Assembly (NCBI GenBank): GCA_900696645.1
Contig: CAADGV010000012.1
Span: 96,181 to 160,180 of the forward strand
Reading direction: 5' to 3'
Source of the DNA: an uncultured Chlorobiota bacterium
GTDB taxonomy: Bacteria; Bacteroidota; Ignavibacteria; UBA10030; UBA6906
DNA: 64,000 bases
The notes beneath the pieces were generated by a model. It saw nothing but the letters and a program-made list of their open reading frames with translations. It did no database searches and was not told the DNA's origin. A program made the position numbers and the translations under genes. Shown here piece after piece: positions 22,804 to 34,103 of the stretch (its first letter is position 1; each line of letters begins with the position of its first letter).

Positions 22804-23271
22804 TTATCGGCGTCGCGGGCGGGCTTGCTTCGCTTTTGACTTTGTCGTTTTCTTCTTCTTCGGTGCAGCCTTCTTCTTTGCGGCTTTCTTCCTCGCCGCC
22901 TTCTTCGGTTTCGGCGGCTCGCTTTTCACGATCCCGATCGTGTTGCCGTCCGGATCGCGGAACATCGCCATCGTCACCATACCCGGAATCTCCATCGGCG
23001 GCATAACAATGGTTCCACCGAGGCCAACCGCTTTGTTTAGGGTCTCCTGCAGGTCGGGAACTTCCGCGTAGAATGTAACAGGTGGGGCCGGCTGGCTCGG
23101 ATCGTTTTGTCCGATGCCGCCTTGTGCGCCTTTCATGCTGCCTGTGCTGACAAGTCCGTAGTGCATCGGATTGTTCGCGTTGACACTCCAGCCGAACAAC
23201 TTCGAGTAGAACTCCTGCAACTGTTCGGCATTATTGGAATTGATTTCCCAGTGAACGACGGGTGCACCCAT
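22804..23271 (-). CDS. VOC (glyoxalase/bleomycin-resistance) family protein with lysine-rich histone-like tail
   Basis: A 155-residue protein. Residues 1-115 form a vicinal-oxygen-chelate domain (VHWEINSNNAEQLQEFYSKL at the start, MFRDPDGNTIGIV at the end), similar to CFP32-like proteins that have no known substrate. Residues 116-155 are almost entirely Lys, Ala, Pro and Arg in KKAA-type repeats and end in RPRRR, like the DNA-binding tails of AlgP or histone H1-like proteins. That tail would bind nucleic acid or other polyanions. AAAGGAG precedes the ATG at a proper distance. A VOC core joined to such a tail is unusual. Confidence 0.8.
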   Translation of the reverse strand: MGAPVVHWEINSNNAEQLQEFYSKLFGWSVNANNPMHYGLVSTGSMKGAQGGIGQNDPSQPAPPVTFYAEVPDLQETLNKAVGLGGTIVMPPMEIPGMVTMAMFRDPDGNTIGIVKSEPPKPKKAARKKAAKKKAAPKKKKTTKSKAKQARPRRR

Positions 23272-23560: not shown

Positions 23561-24196
23561 TTATTTCACAAGATTCAGCCCCTGCAGCGCCAGCGTATCT
23601 CCGGGACTGAGCATCAGCGCGTTGGTGAGAAGCATGCGCGCTTTCTGCCTGTCGCCTAAATAGTAATATGTCCATCCCAGTGAAAGGTTCGGCTCGTACT
23701 CAGCCGGATAATTACTCTGCGCCTTTTCAAGATGGCGCTTTGCCTCATCGTATTCGCCGTCGTTCAGAAGGATTTGTCCGAGGCGAAGATTGGCTGTAAA
23801 GTGCATCGGGTCGAGTTTCAGGATCGCCCGATACGTTGCCTGTACATTCTCCCAATCATTCAACGCCGAGAGCGGCAACGTGCGGCCGAGCAACGCTTCG
23901 ATGCTCTTGTTGTTGGCAATGGTGTTTGCCTGTGTATAGTACTTTTTCGACTCCTCGTAGTTCTTCGAAGAATAGGACAACCAGCCGAGACGAATGTTGA
24001 TGAGATAGTCGTTCTTGTTCTCCTTATATACATCCAGCAAAGATTGAACGGCCTTTGGGTAGTTCCCTGCCATCTCGAATTTCAGCGATTGATGGAAGGC
24101 CTCAACCTTCCCGTTGTTTTGTGACAAGACTGTCCCAGCCAAAACCGCAATGATGATGGCGGCCAGCAACACGCTGAGTAGAGTGAAGTGTTTCAT
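23561..24196 (-). CDS. Exported tetratricopeptide-repeat protein
   Basis: A 211-residue protein with an N-terminal signal peptide or anchor (residues about 6-25) and at least four TPR motifs (for example NYPKAVQSLLDVYKENKNDY, NYEESKKYYTQANTIAN, DPMHFTANLRLGQILLNDGE, PNLSLGWTYYYLGDRQKA). Its ATG overlaps the stop of the urea-transporter/M23 gene (ATGA), so it is the last gene of the PqqD/ATP-grasp/decarboxylase operon. TPRs mediate protein-protein contact; here a periplasmic scaffold for the M23 domain is conceivable but unproven. Confidence 0.82.
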   Translation of the reverse strand: MKHFTLLSVLLAAIIIAVLAGTVLSQNNGKVEAFHQSLKFEMAGNYPKAVQSLLDVYKENKNDYLINIRLGWLSYSSKNYEESKKYYTQANTIANNKSIEALLGRTLPLSALNDWENVQATYRAILKLDPMHFTANLRLGQILLNDGEYDEAKRHLEKAQSNYPAEYEPNLSLGWTYYYLGDRQKARMLLTNALMLSPGDTLALQGLNLVK

Positions 24197-26340
24197 TCTG
24201 ATGTCTCCTCGTTTGTTATTCCCGTTGCAACAAATGCGCGATCCCCCGGTGCAGAGATCCTGATTTCCTTTATCATTCCTTCTGCATCGATTGTGAGAGT
24301 TCCGTCAAGCGTTTTCCGGTAGAACGCAAAAAGTCCCGTCCCTCTCAATTGAATACTGTTCGAGATTGTGTATTCACGACTTTCTTCCGATCGTTCCGCA
24401 AACCTGTATGATGCGCTGGCGTGCAGCTGCGGACTGAACACAAGCAAGAACTCGGAAAGATAACGTACAGCGCCGCCGACTGCCTTCGACACAGGATAGC
24501 GATCCGTCCAGACAAGGTTCGGCTCGTAGCACAGAGGTACCTGCACGGCCATCAGATAGAAATGATAGAGGGCCGAGCGTTTGTTTCCCGCAAAACCGGT
24601 CAGATAGAAAATCTTGCCAACCATCGCGACGGATGCTGTCGCTCCGGCGGAGGATTCTATATACAGGCTGTTGAAGATATCCACCTTCACTTCCCACTCT
24701 TCGTTGAACGATTCACCATCAAATGAACAAGCAAACGAAAGCCTATCCCCCAACGTAAACTCGAACGCTCTCCTGATTATTTTGTGCGATTCGAGATTCC
24801 TCACAAGCATATTCTCTTCCGGATGATCGAATGTGTGCAGAACACATCCGCTTTCTGTTTTCTCTAAATAGTGGCCGATCGGATGTTCGAACGTTTTGTC
24901 TCCCAACTTGTCCGTCATCTGAAACTGGAAATGGAGATGTGGTGCCGGCGAACGTCCGCTGTTGCCGCACATCCCGACTGTGTCCCCCTTCTTCACCCGC
25001 TGCCCAACCACCAGCTTCGTTGCGTGCGGTTCAAGATGAGATACTGCCGAGAAGAGGTTGCTCCCGTGATCGATGATGACCGTGTTTCCCCAATTCGACT
25101 TCAGATTTACTGCGCCAACGTCGTTATTGGGAACACCATCAACAATCCGAACGACGGTACCTTCAAGAGGCGCTACCACGGGAAGTCTATTGCAGTAGTA
25201 ATCGCTCAATGCCGCTCCGTCATTGGCATATTCCTTTCCTTCCTCATCCGTCACAACAAAATCCCACGCATGACGCCACTTGTCCTTGTGTGTGATGGAA
25301 CCGTTATGCCCCTGCGACACACGCCACTCGCCGAAGAACGGCAACTCAGGAACAACGGCTTTGAACCGTTCAAAGCGCGACACGCGATTGTGATGGTAGT
25401 AGAAATTCTCCTCCGGTGTACCGGGCTGGAAATAGAGGAGAACAAGATCGCTCTGTTCGCGCCGGAATTTCAGGCTGTATATTACCGACAGCACAACAAA
25501 GTTGAACGGGAGTACCAGCACGGGTAATTGATAGCCGGACAGCACTTTGACGAAGAAACCCGTCAGTATCACAATAACGAGGGATGCAATGATAGAAAGA
25601 ATGAACGATTTTGTCGACGGAATGATCAAATTTCCGCCGAGAGCAAACGCTGTGAGTATCGAATTGAATCCCGCAAAAATCAGAAACCACTCGCCCGCTT
25701 CCGGCATGATCAAGTCCACGAAGATCACGCTTGAGGCAAACCCGACAATGCTCAGCGTAAACATCACTCGCGACAGAAAGAGAAGGGCAACAGCAAAAAC
25801 AATTCCCGATAACATGTCGGATTGAAACACAATTAACCCAAGACTTCTGAAATATGTCTTGATTGTATCGGGTAGTGTGCCAAGAAATTCCGGTTCAGTA
25901 AACTCGAATGGCTTGCTTTCAATTCCGTTCAGATTGGTGAGAAAGATAATGAACACGTACAGCGTCAGCACAAACGGGAGACTCAACCCCGGCAGGTTGA
26001 ACACGGCGGCAAGATGATGCTCAAGCACAGCCGAGACGAGAAATGTAATAATGATGAAGATGCCGATCAGGACGAGAAAGAACGGTGTCAGCTTGAAGTA
26101 GAATGCCGCGGCGGCACCGAAAAGAATGCCGTTGAATCCGTAAAAGCCGCTTCGGATCTTCGCCTCGTCAAATTTCAACACCGCCGCAGTCAGATTCGAA
26201 AGCACGACTCCCAACAGTGCAACAAGACCCAGCTCCGGCACAACAAACGTCGCCGCCAGCACTACCCCGCCGAACCATTTGCGGTTAGAGAAGAAAATCT
26301 GCGCGTAGCTATAGAGAATGGAGTCGAGAAGTAGATTCAT
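24193..26340 (-). CDS. Urea transporter fused to an M23-type peptidase domain
   Basis: A 715-residue fusion. Residues 1-295 are a hydrophobic urea-transporter-like domain of about ten helices (GFYGFNGILFGAA and FAGFNSILTAFALGG are internally repeated, as in UT proteins). A soluble region follows with an M23/LytM-like metallopeptidase: THKDKWRHAWDF (His351, Asp360), VVAPLEGTVVRIVDG, GNTVIIDHG and APHLHFQ (His468, His470). The last ~235 residues are beta-rich and unassigned. M23 domains usually cut peptidoglycan cross-links or activate amidases, so the soluble part should lie in the periplasm. ATG 26340 is 4 bp after the decarboxylase stop; upstream codons overlap that gene. Confidence 0.85.
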   Translation of the reverse strand: MNLLLDSILYSYAQIFFSNRKWFGGVVLAATFVVPELGLVALLGVVLSNLTAAVLKFDEAKIRSGFYGFNGILFGAAAAFYFKLTPFFLVLIGIFIIITFLVSAVLEHHLAAVFNLPGLSLPFVLTLYVFIIFLTNLNGIESKPFEFTEPEFLGTLPDTIKTYFRSLGLIVFQSDMLSGIVFAVALLFLSRVMFTLSIVGFASSVIFVDLIMPEAGEWFLIFAGFNSILTAFALGGNLIIPSTKSFILSIIASLVIVILTGFFVKVLSGYQLPVLVLPFNFVVLSVIYSLKFRREQSDLVLLYFQPGTPEENFYYHHNRVSRFERFKAVVPELPFFGEWRVSQGHNGSITHKDKWRHAWDFVVTDEEGKEYANDGAALSDYYCNRLPVVAPLEGTVVRIVDGVPNNDVGAVNLKSNWGNTVIIDHGSNLFSAVSHLEPHATKLVVGQRVKKGDTVGMCGNSGRSPAPHLHFQFQMTDKLGDKTFEHPIGHYLEKTESGCVLHTFDHPEENMLVRNLESHKIIRRAFEFTLGDRLSFACSFDGESFNEEWEVKVDIFNSLYIESSAGATASVAMVGKIFYLTGFAGNKRSALYHFYLMAVQVPLCYEPNLVWTDRYPVSKAVGGAVRYLSEFLLVFSPQLHASASYRFAERSEESREYTISNSIQLRGTGLFAFYRKTLDGTLTIDAEGMIKEIRISAPGDRAFVATGITNEETSE

Positions 26341-26344
26341 GATG

Positions 26345-27709
26345 TCAGCGGGATTTCTTCTCCTTGAGTCGGGCGGGCAGAACTTCCTGCTGCGCAAGAT
26401 ACTCCAGCGTTTCCGCTTTGCGAATCAACTCCACCGTGCCGTCTTCCATCACCATTACCACATTCGGTCGCATCGTGATGAACTGCATCCATTGCGTCAT
26501 GTTGTATGCACCGACGTGGTTCAGTACGAGGCGGTCGCCCTGCTTGAGTGTCGGCAGAACAATCCCGTCGCGCAACACATCAATGTTCATGCACAACGGA
26601 CCGTAGATGACGGCATCTTCTGTGTGTACGCTCGGCTGCTGCGCCGGTTGAACCTTGTGCTTGTACCAAAAGCTGGTGAACATCAGGTTCACACCCGCAT
26701 CGACAATGATTGCTCTGCGTCCGGTTGAGAGTCGCTTGTTTGCAATAACAGTTGTAATGAGATACCCCGCGTTGTCAATGAGTGCCCTCCCGGTCTCAAG
26801 AATAAGCGTCGGCAGATCTTCCGGTTTAATGGAAAGCTGGAACAATCCGGAGGCAATTGCATCGGCATATTGCTCAAGACTCGGCACGACTTCTTCCGCA
26901 GGCAGGTATTGCCCGATTAGTGTATTCTGGGATGCAAACCCTCCGCCAACGTCAATGTAATCCAGCGTGATGCTGAATTCATCGTGCATGCTTTTCGCAA
27001 GGCCGGCAAGTTTGCTCGCGGCCACGCGGTATGCCTCGGCACTCATCATGTACGTGCCGATATGTGTGTGCAGCCCGATCAGCGATAGTCGCGGATTGGC
27101 GACAATGCGTTTGATGGCTTGCCACGCCTCGCCGTTCTCATAATTGAAACCGAACCGATCCCACAACGGATACACGCCGACATCCATGTTGACGCGGATG
27201 GCAACGCGGGCCTTCAGTGTTTCCGTATCCGTAAGCTCAACGATGTGATACAACTCGTCGAAGTGATCAATATGAATCATCGCACCTTCGCGTATTGCCG
27301 TACGGAGCGCCTCGATGCTCTTTTCCGGTCCGTTGAAGATGATATGTTCGCCCGGAATACCCAACGCCCGCGCCTTCCGGTATTCAAATTCGGACACAAC
27401 CTCCGCCCACGAACCTTCCTGATGAAACACGGAACAAACGGCATCGAGGTAATTCGTTTTATACGACCAGGCGAATTGAACGCGGGGATACCGGTTTTTG
27501 AATACACGATAGGCATTCCGCTGATTCTGCCTGATGGTTTTCTCGGAAAGCACAAACAGAGGAGAGCCGAATTTCCCGGCGAGATCCTTGATCAGGACGC
27601 CGTCGATATTGTCGCGAACGGACGTTGACGGCCCGCTGCCGAATTTGTTCATGATGCCCGACTGATGTTTCGTCACAACGGGACGTTCGTATGTTTTCTT
27701 TTCTGCCAT
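26345..27709 (-). CDS. PLP fold-III decarboxylase, diaminopimelate/ornithine decarboxylase family, substrate unknown
   Basis: A 454-residue alanine-racemase-fold decarboxylase with a ~40-residue N-terminal extension. The PLP lysine is Lys84 in WSYKTN; GLHTHIG, DVGGGF and ETGRAL supply the phosphate- and ring-binding loops. In true diaminopimelate decarboxylases the opposite subunit contributes CESGD; here the equivalent reads GPLCMNID, keeping Cys but replacing the substrate-binding Glu by Met. The substrate is therefore probably not free meso-diaminopimelate. It starts 2 bp after the ATP-grasp gene with GGAGAG upstream and is followed after 4 bp by the urea-transporter/M23 fusion. Coupling with an ATP-grasp ligase suggests decarboxylation of an amino acid or a C-terminally attached residue (inference). 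Confidence 0.85.
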   Translation of the reverse strand: MAEKKTYERPVVTKHQSGIMNKFGSGPSTSVRDNIDGVLIKDLAGKFGSPLFVLSEKTIRQNQRNAYRVFKNRYPRVQFAWSYKTNYLDAVCSVFHQEGSWAEVVSEFEYRKARALGIPGEHIIFNGPEKSIEALRTAIREGAMIHIDHFDELYHIVELTDTETLKARVAIRVNMDVGVYPLWDRFGFNYENGEAWQAIKRIVANPRLSLIGLHTHIGTYMMSAEAYRVAASKLAGLAKSMHDEFSITLDYIDVGGGFASQNTLIGQYLPAEEVVPSLEQYADAIASGLFQLSIKPEDLPTLILETGRALIDNAGYLITTVIANKRLSTGRRAIIVDAGVNLMFTSFWYKHKVQPAQQPSVHTEDAVIYGPLCMNIDVLRDGIVLPTLKQGDRLVLNHVGAYNMTQWMQFITMRPNVVMVMEDGTVELIRKAETLEYLAQQEVLPARLKEKKSR

Positions 27710-27711
27710 GA

Positions 27712-28746
27712 CTATTTCTCTCCTGCAACCACAAGTTTTTCAAATTCTTTCATGTTGGTGATGTAATCCCACGAATAGCGGATGAAAATCGTACCGATCG
27801 TATATGTCTTGAACTGCGGCACCTGCTCTCCGCGCGCAAGCTTCACAAGTGAATACGGGAGATTTTGCCCGGCACCGGTTGCCAGATGAACCCATGCCGG
27901 GAATCGGGGATTGATCTCCAACAAAAAATACTCACCCGTCTCTTTGGATTTGATGAACTCCAACTCAAGTCCGCTTTGCCATTTCAACGCTTTGACAATG
28001 TCGGCGGCAAGACTGATCAGTGCTTTGTCATCCACTGTTACGCCGGCCCATCCTTTTCCTTTGTCTGTGATGTACAGCTTGCGCATCGGCACAGCGCCGA
28101 TGGATGCCCCGCTGCCGTCGCCGAGCGCGACAACGTTGAATTCATCTCCCGTCACATGCTCTTGTATGATGATAGGAAGTCCCCATTTGAGCCGCAGTTT
28201 GTCGAATGCCGCGTGAACATCGTTGAAGTTGTGGGCGATGTACGCGTCGTAAAAAATTCCCTTCACAACCACGGGGTAGTTGAACTGATTCGGGATTTTG
28301 TGAAGATCCTGCAGCGATGACACAAGCGTGTTTTTCGGCACCTTGAAGCTATGCACTGTACAGAAATCGAACAGCTTGTCCTTGGCGCGCAAGTTCAGTT
28401 GGTCGAACGTCGGCAGAAATGTGTGAATGCCGAGACTTCTCAGCCGCTCGCTCAGCTTGATGAATCCGTACAACTCTGAATCAAGCGTGGGAATGATGAC
28501 ATCTAACTTCTCCCTTGAGTGGATGTACGCAATCCGCTCAAACAACGGTTCCAATCCGCTCGACGGATAGGGAATGAGATAGCTTTTGTCGGCAATGTTC
28601 TCCATGTAGATGCCGGGGTCGAGCGAGTCGTACGACAACCCGATGATGCGTCCGGAAAACTCAGCTGCCGCACGCAGGCTCCGTATGACCGGCACGCCGG
28701 GTCCGGGATTGTCGGTGGCGTTCAGCCCTGTAACGGCGATGTTCAT
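27712..28746 (-). CDS. ATP-grasp ligase (CarB-like), product unknown
   Basis: A 344-residue protein. The N-terminal ~95 residues form a pre-ATP-grasp Rossmann-like domain (IAVTGLNATDNPGPGVPVIRSL). The ATP-grasp core shows KDKLFDF, YPVVVKGIFYDA (ATP-binding lysine), IIQEHVTGDEFNVVALGDG and LLEINPRFPAWVHLATGAG (metal-binding Glu/Asn). The family joins a carboxylate to an amine or thiol through an acyl phosphate. The C-terminal region (GTIFIRYSWDYITNM) lacks similarity to a known biosynthetic enzyme. It overlaps the PqqD-like gene (ATGA) and precedes the PLP decarboxylase by 2 bp, so it acts with both. Confidence 0.85.
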   Translation of the reverse strand: MNIAVTGLNATDNPGPGVPVIRSLRAAAEFSGRIIGLSYDSLDPGIYMENIADKSYLIPYPSSGLEPLFERIAYIHSREKLDVIIPTLDSELYGFIKLSERLRSLGIHTFLPTFDQLNLRAKDKLFDFCTVHSFKVPKNTLVSSLQDLHKIPNQFNYPVVVKGIFYDAYIAHNFNDVHAAFDKLRLKWGLPIIIQEHVTGDEFNVVALGDGSGASIGAVPMRKLYITDKGKGWAGVTVDDKALISLAADIVKALKWQSGLELEFIKSKETGEYFLLEINPRFPAWVHLATGAGQNLPYSLVKLARGEQVPQFKTYTIGTIFIRYSWDYITNMKEFEKLVVAGEK

Positions 28747-28997
28747 TTTGTACGAATCAGTTTGAAGGATGAAAGTTGATTGATAAAGTCATCGAAGTCG
28801 CGGACAAACGTTGCCCGTTCAACATCATACAATTCAAGGATTTTCTGCTCAATGGCTTCACGAGTGTCGCCGCCCTGAAGCATCTTGAAAATGTCTTTGC
28901 CGATTTCATTCAGCGTGAATGTCTCGCCCGTTGAAGCGAGGAAGAGAAATCCTGAATCGCTGACAGCGAGACTTTCAGGAACGAGATATGTGTTCAT
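28743..28997 (-). CDS. PqqD-like peptide-binding protein
   Basis: An 84-residue protein of the PqqD/RRE type: a small winged-helix domain that in PQQ and RiPP pathways holds a precursor peptide for modifying enzymes. FLFLASTGETFTLNEIGKDIF and GDTREAIEQKILELYDVERA reproduce the family's beta-hairpin and helix pattern. It is the first gene of a five-gene operon and overlaps the ATP-grasp gene by ATGA. Only 55 bp separate it from the divergent acyltransferase, so no precursor peptide gene fits upstream. The partner could be a peptide encoded elsewhere, or the ATP-grasp enzyme itself. Confidence 0.8.
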   Translation of the reverse strand: MNTYLVPESLAVSDSGFLFLASTGETFTLNEIGKDIFKMLQGGDTREAIEQKILELYDVERATFVRDFDDFINQLSSFKLIRTK

Positions 28998-29052: not shown

Positions 29053-30126
29053 ATGCTTACGTCAGTTCGCTTCTTTCTTTCCGCCGGGAATCGTGATCAG
29101 ACAGCCGACCTTCTGAAGGGGCTTGCAGTCGTGTTCATGATTCTGGTTCATCTTGTCGAACTCTTTGCCGCACCGGCAATTTATGACAGTATTGCGGGCC
29201 GCGTTGCGTTGTTTCTCGGCGGACCGCCCGCCGCCCCTGTGTTTATGGCCGTAATGGGATACTTTCTTGCCTCATCACGAAAATCTTCGACTCAACATAT
29301 TCGACGCGGAGTCTCCCTTTTTCTCGGCGGAATTGCGCTGAACATCGGACTGAATTTCAATCTTCTCCTCTCCATCCGTTCGGGCCGCTTTGATCTTGAC
29401 CCGCTTCCGTACATCTTCGGTGCCGATATTTTGCCGCTCGCCGGATTGAGCGTGATGGCTTTTGCCCTTCTTCGACCCCTCTTCCGGCGATCATGGATTG
29501 CGTATCTCATTCCGGCCTTCGCCGTCGCCGCTGTAACTCCCCTACTTCACAACATGGAAACGTCCGATCCGTTTTTGAAGTACATTGTGCCGTTCTTGTG
29601 GGGACAATCAAGCTGGTCATACTTCCCGCTGTTTCCCTGGCTTGCGTACCCGTTGCTCGGATACGCGTACAGAATAGCGAGCGAAAGCCTCACACTACAT
29701 TCACGAATGACGCCACCAATCCGCTTACTGCTTCTTGTCTTGTGTACTTCCGGTCTCCTGATCTTTTCAGAGACTGCATATGCGATTTCGGTTGATCTGC
29801 CCCGCTACTATCATCACTCACTTTCGTTCACACTCTGGGTGGCTGTATTCCTCTGCGCCTGGACTCTGCTTGTTTCATTTTTCGAAGAACAAACGGGAAA
29901 TACTCTGCCCGTGCTGTACATCAAATGGATGGGCCGCAATGTCACCGCTGCGTATGTCTTTCAATGGCTCTTTATCGGAAATCTCGCGACAGAACTCTAC
30001 CGCTCACAAACCGCGCTTCTAACTCTCATCTGGTTTGTTGTTGCACTCGCTGTAACAACATGCTGCATCATCGTCTGGCAGAGAGTCAAACCGAAGCTGA
30101 CTACTTTAGTAACGTCATCCGTTTAG
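29053..30126 (+). CDS. DUF1624/acyltransferase-like multipass membrane protein
   Basis: A 357-residue integral membrane protein with about ten hydrophobic segments. It opens with RDQTADLLKGLAVVFMILVH, resembling the RxxxlDxlRGlaillMvxxH signature of heparan-alpha-glucosaminide N-acetyltransferase-like (DUF1624) and YeiB/acyltransferase-3 proteins, in which the His receives the acyl group. SYFPLFPWLAYPLLGY is another family-like stretch. It probably moves an acyl group across the membrane onto an envelope sugar or peptide; the acceptor is unknown. ATG 29053 was chosen because earlier codons overlap the divergent PqqD-like gene. The 3' end overlaps the convergent FG-GAP gene by 26 bp. Confidence 0.75.
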   Translation: MLTSVRFFLSAGNRDQTADLLKGLAVVFMILVHLVELFAAPAIYDSIAGRVALFLGGPPAAPVFMAVMGYFLASSRKSSTQHIRRGVSLFLGGIALNIGLNFNLLLSIRSGRFDLDPLPYIFGADILPLAGLSVMAFALLRPLFRRSWIAYLIPAFAVAAVTPLLHNMETSDPFLKYIVPFLWGQSSWSYFPLFPWLAYPLLGYAYRIASESLTLHSRMTPPIRLLLLVLCTSGLLIFSETAYAISVDLPRYYHHSLSFTLWVAVFLCAWTLLVSFFEEQTGNTLPVLYIKWMGRNVTAAYVFQWLFIGNLATELYRSQTALLTLIWFVVALAVTTCCIIVWQRVKPKLTTLVTSSV

Positions 30127-31744
30127 TTTCCGTGAATCCGCCGGCCGTAAGCCGTGCATAGTACACGCCGCTTGGCATGCCTGCCGCATTCCATCGAACG
30201 GAGTATCTACCGGATTGAAGCGGTTCGTTAGTCAGTGTCGCGACTTCTCTCCCCAACATATCATACACCTTCAACAACACATTGTTGACCTCTGACTTCT
30301 GACCTCTGAGTTCCGGTATGCGGAATTTGATGTATGTCGATGGATTGAACGGATTCGGGTAATTCTGCTCAAGCATGAATCCCGAAGCCTGCTCATCAAG
30401 CAATTGTACACTCGCCGGGCCCATCTCGACCACTGTGAGAATTGGTTTATCCCGCGCGAAACTTGCCGAGGCAATCACCATATCCGGACGCCCGTCATTG
30501 TCAAAATCTCCCACCGAAACTTTTGACGGCCTGAACCAACCCTGATCCGAGCCGGGGGTGATGCTGTCGGTGGTGTCGTCCTGGAACACGGTCGCCTTCT
30601 GGTAATTCTGCGGATCCGTTACCGAGCCGCCTGCGTACTTCCATTGAAACACTGCTTCGTGATAGCTTCCTGCGAGATACAATTCCGGCACACCGTTCCC
30701 ATCAATGTCGCCTTTCGAAACGCCGGCGATTCCCCTGTACGGATTGTATGAGTGCAGCAGGGTGATGTTGTTGCTCGTTATCTGACTCACGTCGCCGGGG
30801 TTGGTCACGACATACACTCGTCCGTTGCCGGTGCCTACGTACAGTTCGTTTGTTGCGTTGTTATCGTAGTTCGCCTCGGCAAAGCCCATGTTGGAGAGAT
30901 CAATAGTGATGTCGTTAAGATAGACGTTGGCGGCGCGACCGTATGAGTTGGGAACGCCGGTATGTTCATAGAATGCCAAATGCAACGGTTCCCAGCCGAC
31001 GGCAACTATTTCTTTTCTCCCGTCACGGTCAAGGTCGGTTGCCTCAAGTGCATAGCCAACGTAAGCGAATGTTGTCGAATCCTGAAATTCTATGTTCCAG
31101 ACAGGATTCTGAAATGTCGAACCCGGAGCAAGGGAAAAGATCATGAACCTGCTCTTCGGCGTTGAGTAGCGTTCTTGAAAAGCAACCGCGACTTCATCGC
31201 GTCCATCATTGTCGAAATCACCGGCGATGATGGCAGTTCCTTCGTCGAATGCGGCCGTGAGGTTGAGATTCCAAGTGGCCGTTGGAAGGCTCGGGAATCC
31301 GTTATCCATTCCGTTCCATTCGAACACATAGAAACCGTGATACGTTGAATCATACGGATCAATCAAACAGAGAATCTCTTTCCTCCCGTCACCGTCAAGA
31401 TCGGCGACGGCAACAGCGCTATAGTCGTTGGAGTAGGGGTAGAACGAATAACTCCAGATGTTCTGGTAGTTGTTGTTGCCGGCATACTCGTACAAGTACA
31501 CGGCATTGTGATACACACCGCTCCACGCCGTTGACAGAAGGAATTCCTTCTTGCCATCATTGTCAAGATCGAGTTCCGATTTCATCATTGACCACACGAT
31601 GCTGCTCGGATGAAGTCCGCCTGAATCCCACGGCACCGTCCTCCATACAGGTGAAAAGGTGGATTGTGCGAGAGATATTGAAAAGAGACCCGCACTTACC
31701 GTCAATATGAAAAACGGCAGAAGGAAGTATCTATACGTATACAT
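30101..31744 (-). CDS. FG-GAP/VCBS-repeat secreted protein with type IX sorting domain
   Basis: A 547-residue exported protein with a signal peptide ending near SLAQ. It carries at least six integrin-like FG-GAP/VCBS repeats with calcium loops (DLDNDGKKE, DLDGDGRKE, DFDNDGRDE, DLDRDGRKE, DIDGNGVPE, DFDNDGRPD), which form a beta-propeller. The C-terminal sorting domain has NYPNPFNPSTYIKF and MLGREVATL. The sorting domain holds a seven-residue insert encoded by a 3 x 7-bp repeat (see findings). Binding to surface ligands is likely; no enzymatic motif is visible. AAAGGAC lies ahead of the ATG. Confidence 0.88.
   Translation of the reverse strand: MYTYRYFLLPFFILTVSAGLFSISLAQSTFSPVWRTVPWDSGGLHPSSIVWSMMKSELDLDNDGKKEFLLSTAWSGVYHNAVYLYEYAGNNNYQNIWSYSFYPYSNDYSAVAVADLDGDGRKEILCLIDPYDSTYHGFYVFEWNGMDNGFPSLPTATWNLNLTAAFDEGTAIIAGDFDNDGRDEVAVAFQERYSTPKSRFMIFSLAPGSTFQNPVWNIEFQDSTTFAYVGYALEATDLDRDGRKEIVAVGWEPLHLAFYEHTGVPNSYGRAANVYLNDITIDLSNMGFAEANYDNNATNELYVGTGNGRVYVVTNPGDVSQITSNNITLLHSYNPYRGIAGVSKGDIDGNGVPELYLAGSYHEAVFQWKYAGGSVTDPQNYQKATVFQDDTTDSITPGSDQGWFRPSKVSVGDFDNDGRPDMVIASASFARDKPILTVVEMGPASVQLLDEQASGFMLEQNYPNPFNPSTYIKFRIPELRGQKSEVNNVLLKVYDMLGREVATLTNEPLQSGRYSVRWNAAGMPSGVYYARLTAGGFTETKRMTLLK
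30287..30307. repeat. Three tandem 7-bp units inside the FG-GAP gene
   Basis: GACCTCT-GACTTCT-GACCTCT on the plus strand (AGAGGTC-AGAAGTC-AGAGGTC in the sense direction). The 21 bp add seven codons to the sorting domain and keep the frame. Confidence 0.7.
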
Positions 31745-31773: not shown

Positions 31774-32625
31774 CTAGAACACAACTCTGAGCCCCAACGA
31801 GCCATACGTCGCCGAATACTCGTCATGCCCGTTGTACTCGAATGAGGGAATAACATAGAACCCTCCTGCAATATTCACGATTGCCTTCGCCTGCACAAAC
31901 CTCGTTTGCACAACCCGCTGGTTGTAAAGAATCAAATTCTCATCATCAAAGTAGAAGGCTCTTCGTCCCGCACCTGCCGTGGCAACAAGGAAGTTGCTGT
32001 TCCCGAAGGGGATGCTAATGGTTTGATGCATTGAAAACAGTGAAGGAGTCCACGACGCGTTGCTCAGAATAGCGGTGGTGGTGGCCCAGATTCCACCGGT
32101 AACCTCGAAGAAAAAAAATCCCCTCACAATGCTCGTGGCAATCTCTCCACCCGAATGGGAAAGCGTGAACGATGAACCGGCAACCTGAAATGGCGAGAAC
32201 CAATAACTTACGCCGCCCCCCATCCAATGAAAGATCGTGCGAGCAGAAAATGATTGTATCTCCCCTTCATCCAAATAGGCATAGTGGGCCGTGAGCGTGA
32301 TACGTGGCGGAAAGAACTTTGATGCCCGCGCCGAAACAAGATGTTGTGTGTAGTACTTTCCTCCGGCATCACCCCGTTCAAGCCAAAGCGAGTTGTAACC
32401 GACAGTGTAATAGTCGACCCAAGCACTGGACAGAGTAGCATAACCGCTGAGTGAGCGGGACTTCGTATCAGTGGAATAATTACCGATTGACCCGTAGGTG
32501 GAGAGTACAACATGAAGGGATGGAGAATGGGAAGAACTGACCCCGGGATCCACATTGGCCGCGCTGTCATCAACGCCTATACTCGTTGCGGTAAGGAATC
32601 CCAGCAATCCAAAAGCAAATATCAT
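31774..32625 (-). CDS. Putative outer-membrane beta-barrel protein
   Basis: A 283-residue protein with a signal peptide (hydrophobic residues about 3-17), then alternating polar/aromatic strands such as KYYTQHLVSARASKFF and RITLTAHYAYLDEGE, ending in GLRVVF. A terminal phenylalanine on an amphipathic strand is the usual BAM recognition signal. I recognise no specific family; YaiO-like barrels are a possibility. ATG 32625 is preferred because GGAG lies 5 bp upstream; a GTG six bases earlier is less likely. It is 29 bp upstream of the FG-GAP gene and probably cotranscribed with it. The 284 bp upstream hold no gene I can see. Confidence 0.65.
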   Translation of the reverse strand: MIFAFGLLGFLTATSIGVDDSAANVDPGVSSSHSPSLHVVLSTYGSIGNYSTDTKSRSLSGYATLSSAWVDYYTVGYNSLWLERGDAGGKYYTQHLVSARASKFFPPRITLTAHYAYLDEGEIQSFSARTIFHWMGGGVSYWFSPFQVAGSSFTLSHSGGEIATSIVRGFFFFEVTGGIWATTTAILSNASWTPSLFSMHQTISIPFGNSNFLVATAGAGRRAFYFDDENLILYNQRVVQTRFVQAKAIVNIAGGFYVIPSFEYNGHDEYSATYGSLGLRVVF

Positions 32626-32909
32626 ACACACTCCATCAATTCAGAAAAGGGAATTCCCGCCCTCCGTTGGGTCGTCATGGCCCAAATTGGCTGAATGTAG
32701 TGGTTACCGAATTGGGTTGTATCCGTTACGAAGTAAGGAGGCGGGCATTCCAAAGAACTCAAGATTCATCGAACAAAGCCTCGTCGGTTCATGCCCATCA
32801 ACCGGCAGAAGAAAACCAATTGGCTCAGGTTAGACCAAGAGTTACTGTTGACAGTTTAATCAGAACCAACATATGCATAAAATTCGTTAATAGCATCGCT
32901 TCGGAAGCC

Positions 32910-34103
32910 TCACGGTAAATAGAACCCCGCAGAACTCCCTACCCACGCCATGTTCTTGTTGTGATCGACGCCCATCATTTTGCCGCGGCCCATGCGGACG
33001 AGGTTTGCAACCGGCGTCAGTGTACCCCCTTCGGGCCAGATGTACATGATGCGGACTTCAGCTTTTGTTCCCCCGTGCGGTGTTTGAATGAACGCGCCGT
33101 ATTCCACTCTATCCTGAAGAACATATCCGCCTCTATGCTCCTCAGGAACTGCATCAATATCGGCACGGGTCGGCGCTATGATTACGCCGCTTCCGGCAAA
33201 TGAGAAGAGAGGTTTCAGAACCCGGTTCTGTACATCATCCGGCACTGATCTCAGTTCATTCAGAAAGAGTGTTTTCGGAACAGTCGGATGATCAAGAAAT
33301 GGAAGCGAGAATTTGCTGATGAGATAAAACCAATTCGGATGTCCGGCCCATTCCACATCCAGCTCATCCCGAAAGCTGAACGGAAGGCGTACGTCGGATT
33401 TGATCAACTCATCCACAATGGCGCGATTGTAAATGCGGTGGATCGGAACGAGATTGCCATCCCGCCAGTACAACAACTGCCTTCCCTGCTTGACGACATC
33501 GCGGATGTTCACCGTTTGTGTGCCGCACATTCTATCGGTCAGCAGAAAATCAGGTCGTGTTTTTTGATGAACGGGGTCGAGTTCGAGAAGCACGACATTG
33601 TCGGGATCATGATTTCCCAGAACTGCCTTTCTGAACAGCAACGTGTACGCTTCATAATCAAGATTACCCAACAAGAATCGGCATTCTTGAGGCAACTCGA
33701 AAACCTCCTTGAACAGCATCGACTGGACAGGCTGGAAGCAGTACAGGGTCGGAAATCCCTGCAACTCAATCAACCGCGGGGCAAATGAACCATCCGGCAG
33801 TTGTACGATTCCGAAATCCACTGCAACAAATAACGGGTGGCGTGTTTGCTTCGGAACGTTGAAGTCATGCGGAATGGTCTGCGCGGCTCGCTGAAGATAC
33901 GCGGCGTTGCTCATCAACTGCATGATGATCGATGAGCCGGCCTCCGCCATCTCGTTCATCAACGGAGCGGGAATGAAGAACGGCGTCTCCGATACGCGGA
34001 ACTCCACGTGCGTGCCACATGTCGCATCGAGCCGCTTCAAGAAGAGACGGTACTTCTCGTCGGTGAAATTGTTGTTGTAATACTGGCGAAGATGAGGAAC
34101 CAT
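32910..34103 (-). CDS. ATP-grasp-like amide ligase B, last gene of the second ligase operon
   Basis: A 397-residue protein. The C-terminal half has ATP-grasp features: VLKPLFSFAGSGVIIAP (ATP-binding Lys and glycine loop), YVLQDRVEYG (adenine strand) and KAEVRIMYIWPEGG (metal-binding Glu/Arg). The N-terminal half includes an FVAVDFGIVQLPDG segment and RPDFLLTDRMCG, and resembles circularly permuted or glutathionylspermidine-synthase-like ATP-grasp proteins. The product is unknown. It is 63 bp downstream of the M29-like peptidase gene and ends the operon that begins with ligase A at 37327. Confidence 0.65.
   Translation of the reverse strand: MVPHLRQYYNNNFTDEKYRLFLKRLDATCGTHVEFRVSETPFFIPAPLMNEMAEAGSSIIMQLMSNAAYLQRAAQTIPHDFNVPKQTRHPLFVAVDFGIVQLPDGSFAPRLIELQGFPTLYCFQPVQSMLFKEVFELPQECRFLLGNLDYEAYTLLFRKAVLGNHDPDNVVLLELDPVHQKTRPDFLLTDRMCGTQTVNIRDVVKQGRQLLYWRDGNLVPIHRIYNRAIVDELIKSDVRLPFSFRDELDVEWAGHPNWFYLISKFSLPFLDHPTVPKTLFLNELRSVPDDVQNRVLKPLFSFAGSGVIIAPTRADIDAVPEEHRGGYVLQDRVEYGAFIQTPHGGTKAEVRIMYIWPEGGTLTPVANLVRMGRGKMMGVDHNKNMAWVGSSAGFYLP

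Follow-up and report, generated by a model that had tools for sequence, protein, structure and literature searches.

The window analysed here, a stretch of 64,000 nucleotides, comes from an assembly of 4.2 Mb, and the relatives of its source organism are Ignavibacteriota. Between positions 23561 and 28997 its minus strand encodes, in this order, a PqqD-family protein, an ATP-grasp ligase, a PLP decarboxylase, a protein that joins a urea-transporter-type (UT) domain to an M23 peptidase domain, and a TPR protein (Table 1). The junctions of the five ORFs are, in the same order, a 4-bp ATGA overlap, a 2-bp gap, a 4-bp gap and a 4-bp overlap. This array had been described in an earlier note on the DNA, and its coordinates, overlaps and short gaps are as given there; the family assignments are borne out by Pfam and NCBIfam matches, and 55 bp do separate the PqqD gene from a divergent gene (ATG at 29053). 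Two more minus-strand genes of the same conserved cluster had been overlooked beyond this divergent gene, those of a secreted FG-GAP protein and of a predicted outer-membrane barrel.

Table 1. Positions of the cluster genes and of their domains in the window.
Feature	Position	Strand	Match or remark
TPR protein, N-terminal membrane anchor or signal, 211 aa	23561..24196	-	PF07719 (TPR_2) 1.1e-17
UT channel domain + M23 peptidase domain + C-terminal domain, one protein, 715 aa (from ATG)	24193..26340	-	
UT-M23 C-terminal domain	24193..24918	-	model; weakly LolA/YmcC-like half barrel
M23 (LytM) peptidase domain, residues 351-476	24913..25290	-	PF01551 4e-15
Urea-transporter-type membrane domain, residues 5-288	25477..26328	-	PF03253 (UT) 1.7e-51
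Fold-III PLP decarboxylase, FigC/BtrK/DAPDC group, 454 aa	26345..27709	-	Orn_Arg_deC_N 3e-32
Leader-like decarboxylase tail, residues 4-24 (KKTYERPVVTKHQSGIMNKFG)	27638..27700	-	Lys22 codon 27644-27646
ATP-grasp ligase, 344 aa	27712..28746	-	PF15632 (ATPgrasp_Ter) 2.4e-11
PqqD-family (RRE-type) protein, 84 aa	28743..28997	-	PF05402 2.1e-12
Divergent acyltransferase (HGSNAT/Acyl_transf_3)	29053..30126	+	PF07786 3e-13
Secreted FG-GAP protein, T9SS sorting tail	30101..31744	-	PF13517 5e-30, PF18962 3.9e-7
Predicted 14-stranded outer-membrane barrel	31774..32631	-	conserved with the cassette; structure model

The gene array is a real module, linked far beyond chance and spread across the phylum (Bacteroidota sensu GTDB, in Ignavibacteria and Bacteroidia). 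Profiles of the ATP-grasp, UT-M23 and decarboxylase proteins each found 33 of 395 phylum genomes, and the three lists are identical; the carriers span 26 genera, in Ignavibacteria and other classes. The chance of identical lists for two independent genes is about 10^-48, a figure that shared ancestry makes too strong, but the linkage stands despite this overstatement because the spread of the cassette is patchy. A survey of 100 relatives gave 12 genomes, counting that of the window, with an ATP-grasp orthologue (44-100% identity), and a UT-M23 gene matching over a long stretch occurs in exactly these 12; one further relative (G057) has a broken UT-M23 piece and no ATP-grasp, and in another genome (G103) the UT half and the M23 half are encoded by two ORFs. 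Of 51 loci that encode an ATP-grasp orthologue, near-duplicates among them, 50 gave a PqqD match in a profile search, so that the PqqD-ATP-grasp pair, whose separation in relatives had been set beforehand as the finding that would speak against a common pathway, is kept together. On a 10.6-kb contig of a genome that is 62% complete (L058, G033:C112), the decarboxylase retains its tail motif (YEKPTI) and no PqqD is present. Distances between genes correlate (r 0.80-0.93). The distribution beyond the phylum was searched with the window's ATP-grasp as sole query, in one genome collection. Six core genes, one taxonomic range and the perfect co-occurrence of the three genes tested make the module a clean unit.

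The same gene order also recurs across the phylum, and the module is larger than first noted: the barrel belongs to it and usually the T9SS-tailed secreted protein too. The arrangement found in most Ignavibacteria starts with the secreted T9SS protein and runs through PqqD, ATP-grasp, decarboxylase, UT-M23 and TPR to the barrel, which is the final cassette gene in most Ignavibacterium loci; members of other classes have a further protein after UT-M23 and before TPR, either a TPR-barrel protein or a different barrel-like one. T9SS-tailed FG-GAP homologues adjoin the cassette or sit inside it in other loci, and in three of them (L057, L059 and L060) the secreted FG-GAP gene separates PqqD from ATP-grasp. 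On a Paludibacter-labelled contig (L052, 12496-13374) the trio PqqD, ATP-grasp and decarboxylase is followed by a DUF4476 protein, with no UT-M23. For the window's genus, the genes of both the barrel and the secreted protein are upstream, cut off from PqqD by the opposite-strand acyltransferase gene; among the loci compared, the window, L033 and L054 are the only ones with an acyltransferase there, and it is probably an insertion into the cassette that set the barrel and the T9SS-tailed gene apart in this genus. No further gene family was conserved beside the cassette in the loci compared. Four distant loci (L057, L059, L060 and L061) have a small secreted protein of about 150-170 amino acids next to PqqD; it ends in paired Cys (DCYWC or GCYWC) in three of the four, and the one that was scanned had no Pfam match.

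The decarboxylase starts with about 33 residues that have no counterpart in its solved relatives and that follow the pattern K-K-x-Y-E-R-P-x-I-...-G-x-x-N-K-F-G. The core of this tail, [Y/F]xxPx[I/V/L], is present in 49 of 49 decarboxylase homologues, with Pro10 and Lys22 (in the KFG motif) invariant, and within the first 45 residues of just one of 830 other ORFs. Mean column identity is 0.70 over residues 4-24, 0.42 over the variable linker (residues 25-34) and 0.70 over the enzyme. Lasso-type and LPP PqqD-type RREs bind the motif [Y/W]xxPx[L/V/I/F/A], and three LppB residues make the contacts in the solved complex, Asn33 by fixing the kink at the Pro, Asp70 through a bond to the Tyr hydroxyl and Phe74 by packing on the Pro; the N33A mutation nearly abolishes binding and D70A weakens it (PMC13381572). 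The closest solved relatives of the cassette PqqD are the lasso B1 proteins TbiB1 and TfuB1, and LppB residues N33, D70 and F74 (chain 9x8z_B) align with its residues N30, D67 and F71, conserved in 51, 45 and 48 of 51 rows, respectively; judged by these residues, the cassette PqqD appears to have the leader-binding cleft of an RRE. The two partners also vary together. Where residue 7 of the tail is Tyr, it is paired with Asp67 of PqqD (42 of 42 loci), and where it is Phe, which has no hydroxyl for an Asp to bond, Asp67 is gone (six of six loci; Tyr in four, His in one and Ser in one). The six Phe7 rows form one clade (quick tree, support 90) and therefore count as a single correlated change, after which the freed position drifted, rather than as six events. 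Docking of PqqD on the decarboxylase tail is thus well supported by the sequences, and the earlier idea of a PqqD that holds a peptide for modification needs revision: its ligand is probably no separate peptide but the N-terminal tail of the decarboxylase.

The remaining proteins of the module point to the envelope. The UT domain can be aligned with urea transporters of solved structure and shares with dvUT, a bacterial urea transporter, the membrane fold as far as sequence tells, and several slot Phe/Leu residues; it differs from dvUT in the polar pore residues of its second half, in being fused to M23 and C-terminal domains, and in that the genome, which has a single UT gene, has no urease. 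The pore signature LPxxTxPF reads LPGLSLPF in the first half (Thr to Ser) and LPVLVLPF in the second (Thr to Val), and the window's UT domain therefore seems to lack the two LPxxTxPF motifs of a functional urea channel. UT proteins are passive small-solute channels, which makes export of a larger conjugate through this domain doubtful; import of a solute through it is as conceivable as export. The M23 zinc ligands H351, D360, H468 and H470, plus H435, are conserved in every row with the column in question, and the domain has, by its residues, the putative H, D, HxH zinc site of the family. The C-terminal domain of the same protein was modelled with a pLDDT of 84 and gave a best Z of 9.1, the LolA rows scoring about 6 to 7; the comparison tool rates Z values of this range as middling. 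The model of the barrel protein (pLDDT 83.8) has an all-strand body of about 14 strands, with OmpG as top Foldseek match (E 5.8e-9) and Z of about 20 to OmpG and FadL-type barrels, and it predicts a closed barrel of amphipathic strands which, with the signal sequence, would make an outer-membrane beta-barrel. The TPR protein is conserved together with the cassette. The literature searched, with most subscription journals outside its coverage, gave no account of the gene set, no role for the UT-M23 fusion and no UT and M23 pairing of any kind.

We propose, at about even chances, that these genes form an indivisible, envelope-spanning biosynthesis module in which PqqD brings decarboxylase and ATP-grasp ligase together and a conjugate is made, trimmed and handled at the envelope. 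PqqD would be an adaptor that grips the [Y/F]xxPx[I/V/L] tail and sets the decarboxylase beside the ligase, and would present no ribosomal precursor peptide. The ATP-grasp enzyme would join a carboxylate to an amine or a thiol, giving what may be an amino-acid conjugate, and the FigC/BtrK-type decarboxylase would take off the free alpha-carboxylate of the conjugated amino acid to leave an amine. The UT-M23 protein could then deal with the product at the inner membrane, and the TPR protein and beta-barrel with its passage through periplasm and outer membrane, a direction of transport that is conjectural. The suggestion in the earlier note of one pathway with an action on the envelope is retained in this proposal owing to gene linkage and order; in place of a separate peptide for PqqD, the proposal has docking on an enzyme tail as the probable arrangement.

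The catalytic residues of the decarboxylase are intact (K84 in 49 of 49 rows; C373-M374-x-I376-D377 in the 48 of 48 rows that have the column), and its PDB matches are headed by FigC (7kh2, 299 bits), with DAPDC at 227 and BtrK at 154 bits. A route of the polyamine or lysine type, in which a free basic amino acid is decarboxylated and the ATP-grasp enzyme then couples the amine, would be common for fold-III decarboxylases, and the NCBIfam models lysA (233 bits, cut-off 297.9) and FslC (237 bits, cut-off 500) score alike, both below their cut-offs. In ODC, ADC and DAPDC, however, an acidic residue beside the catalytic Cys binds the free side-chain amine, the FigC residue being Met355 (PMC7857480), and the cassette enzymes have Met374 after this Cys in all 48 rows with the column, the loop being CMNID versus CESGD in LysA. 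The Arg of the DAPDC specificity helix is also missing and a separate LysA with a normal CESGD loop is encoded elsewhere in the same genome, which leaves this route improbable. FigC, SbnH, AcsE, MccE and BtrK all decarboxylate amino acids that are already attached to something (PMC7857480), and the Cys-Met active-site loop shared with FigC makes a conjugated substrate likely. The attached group is unlikely to be citryl, because the citrate-contact residues H357, R387 and N389 of FigC are replaced by Ile376, Gln406 and Met408. A rhizoferrin-like siderophore system, with a decarboxylase acting on an N-citryl amino acid, is therefore very improbable even though FigC, of the rhizoferrin N-citrylornithine decarboxylases (FigC/FslC), is the best match and closest solved relative; the cassette enzyme has in addition an N-terminal tail of its own, and the cassette comprises no NIS synthetase. 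The ATP-grasp protein has its best PDB matches among carbamoyl-phosphate synthase-type ATP-grasp enzymes, and K162, E202, E261, E263, E277, N279 and R281 are nearly invariant in 52 rows. In the BtrI/BtrJ/BtrK arm of butirosin biosynthesis the ATP-grasp ligase is BtrJ. By analogy with BtrJ and BtrK, the ligase would act before the decarboxylase.

Readings also diverge on what the tail is for. PqqD-type proteins serve as flags for ribosomal peptide pathways, and this could be an ordinary RiPP pathway with a precursor encoded elsewhere, the decarboxylase tail competing with its leader or mimicking it. The closeness of the cassette PqqD to lasso B1 proteins and the lasso-leader motif of the tail agree with such a pathway, but in 52 loci the 450 bp flanking the cassette on each side contain no conserved short ORF bar the end of the T9SS-tailed gene, in keeping with the earlier note, which saw no precursor gene at either end of the array. 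A search of 18 genomes keyed on the decarboxylase tail motif, which a precursor with a different leader would escape, gave no second ORF that was credible. Distant-precursor RiPP synthesis is thus distinctly improbable. The second ORFs considered were weak matches (E 0.05-0.9); of the four that were read, the G000 and G001 ones resemble each other, the former being antisense to a gene that reads as argininosuccinate lyase, and the other two look like chance. The tail alone matched none of the NCBIfam leader models or PDB entries, and a Pfam DUF5972 hit (E 0.06, 11 residues covered) was set aside as evidence. The families called for the window cluster include neither a lasso B2 protease nor an Asn-synthetase-like cyclase. 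Alternatively, the tail could itself be the modified substrate, as a fused precursor or a carrier arm, with the ATP-grasp enzyme loading the invariant Lys22. PqqD would then present the tail, and an amino acid joined via its side-chain carboxylate would be decarboxylated while attached, a parallel to BtrJ and BtrK acting on the carrier BtrI. Lys22, conserved in 49 of 49 homologues, lies in the region absent from solved relatives and beyond the part that PqqD should grip, and carrier-bound decarboxylation is established for BtrK (PMC7857480), itself a solved relative; yet Lys22 could instead be needed for folding, in the active site or to dock the ligase, and such an arm has no obvious release step, so that we regard this reading as rather unlikely. 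We consider equally doubtful the fuller form of this reading, a precursor-less RRE pathway in which Lys22 accepts the amino acid from the ATP-grasp enzyme, the decarboxylase thus has its own swinging arm, and the product is released into an envelope machine of UT-M23, TPR protein and barrel.

Each part of the module that we propose comes from a known family, and the pairing of tail and PqqD re-uses known RRE-leader recognition; in the features compared, the pathway as a whole does not fully match RiPP, butirosin-type or rhizoferrin-type systems. It has the cleft residues of the lasso and LPP RREs (TfuB1, TbiB1 and LppB) and their ligand motif, YxxPx[L/V/I], but the motif is on an enzyme and not on a precursor peptide. 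With BtrI/BtrJ/BtrK it has in common a small partner protein and a fold-III decarboxylase whose amino-acid substrate is, here probably, already attached (PMC7857480 for BtrK and BtrI), and here too the ATP-grasp ligase and the decarboxylase are in one operon; the small protein, however, matches PqqD/RRE and not a phosphopantetheine carrier family, and the cassette adds an envelope part and has no aminoglycoside genes. If the ligand of PqqD is an enzyme tail, a PqqD match need not mean a precursor peptide, and the tails of neighbouring enzymes would be worth scanning for leader motifs.

A few observations concern genes outside the module. A second PqqD-family gene in L002 (G000:C7:178626-178784) is unlinked and has no cassette relatives around it. 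PADLOC gave no match to defence systems. On the minus strand, 32910-34103 encodes a protein of 397 aa for which Pfam, NCBIfam and PADLOC gave no match and that was found, among the loci examined, in the same genus only (L054), and on the other side of the cluster 22804-23271, also minus, encodes a glyoxalase-family protein with a long Lys/Ala-rich C-terminal tail of the histone H1 kind (KKAARKKAAKKKAAPKKKKTTKSKAKQARPRRR).
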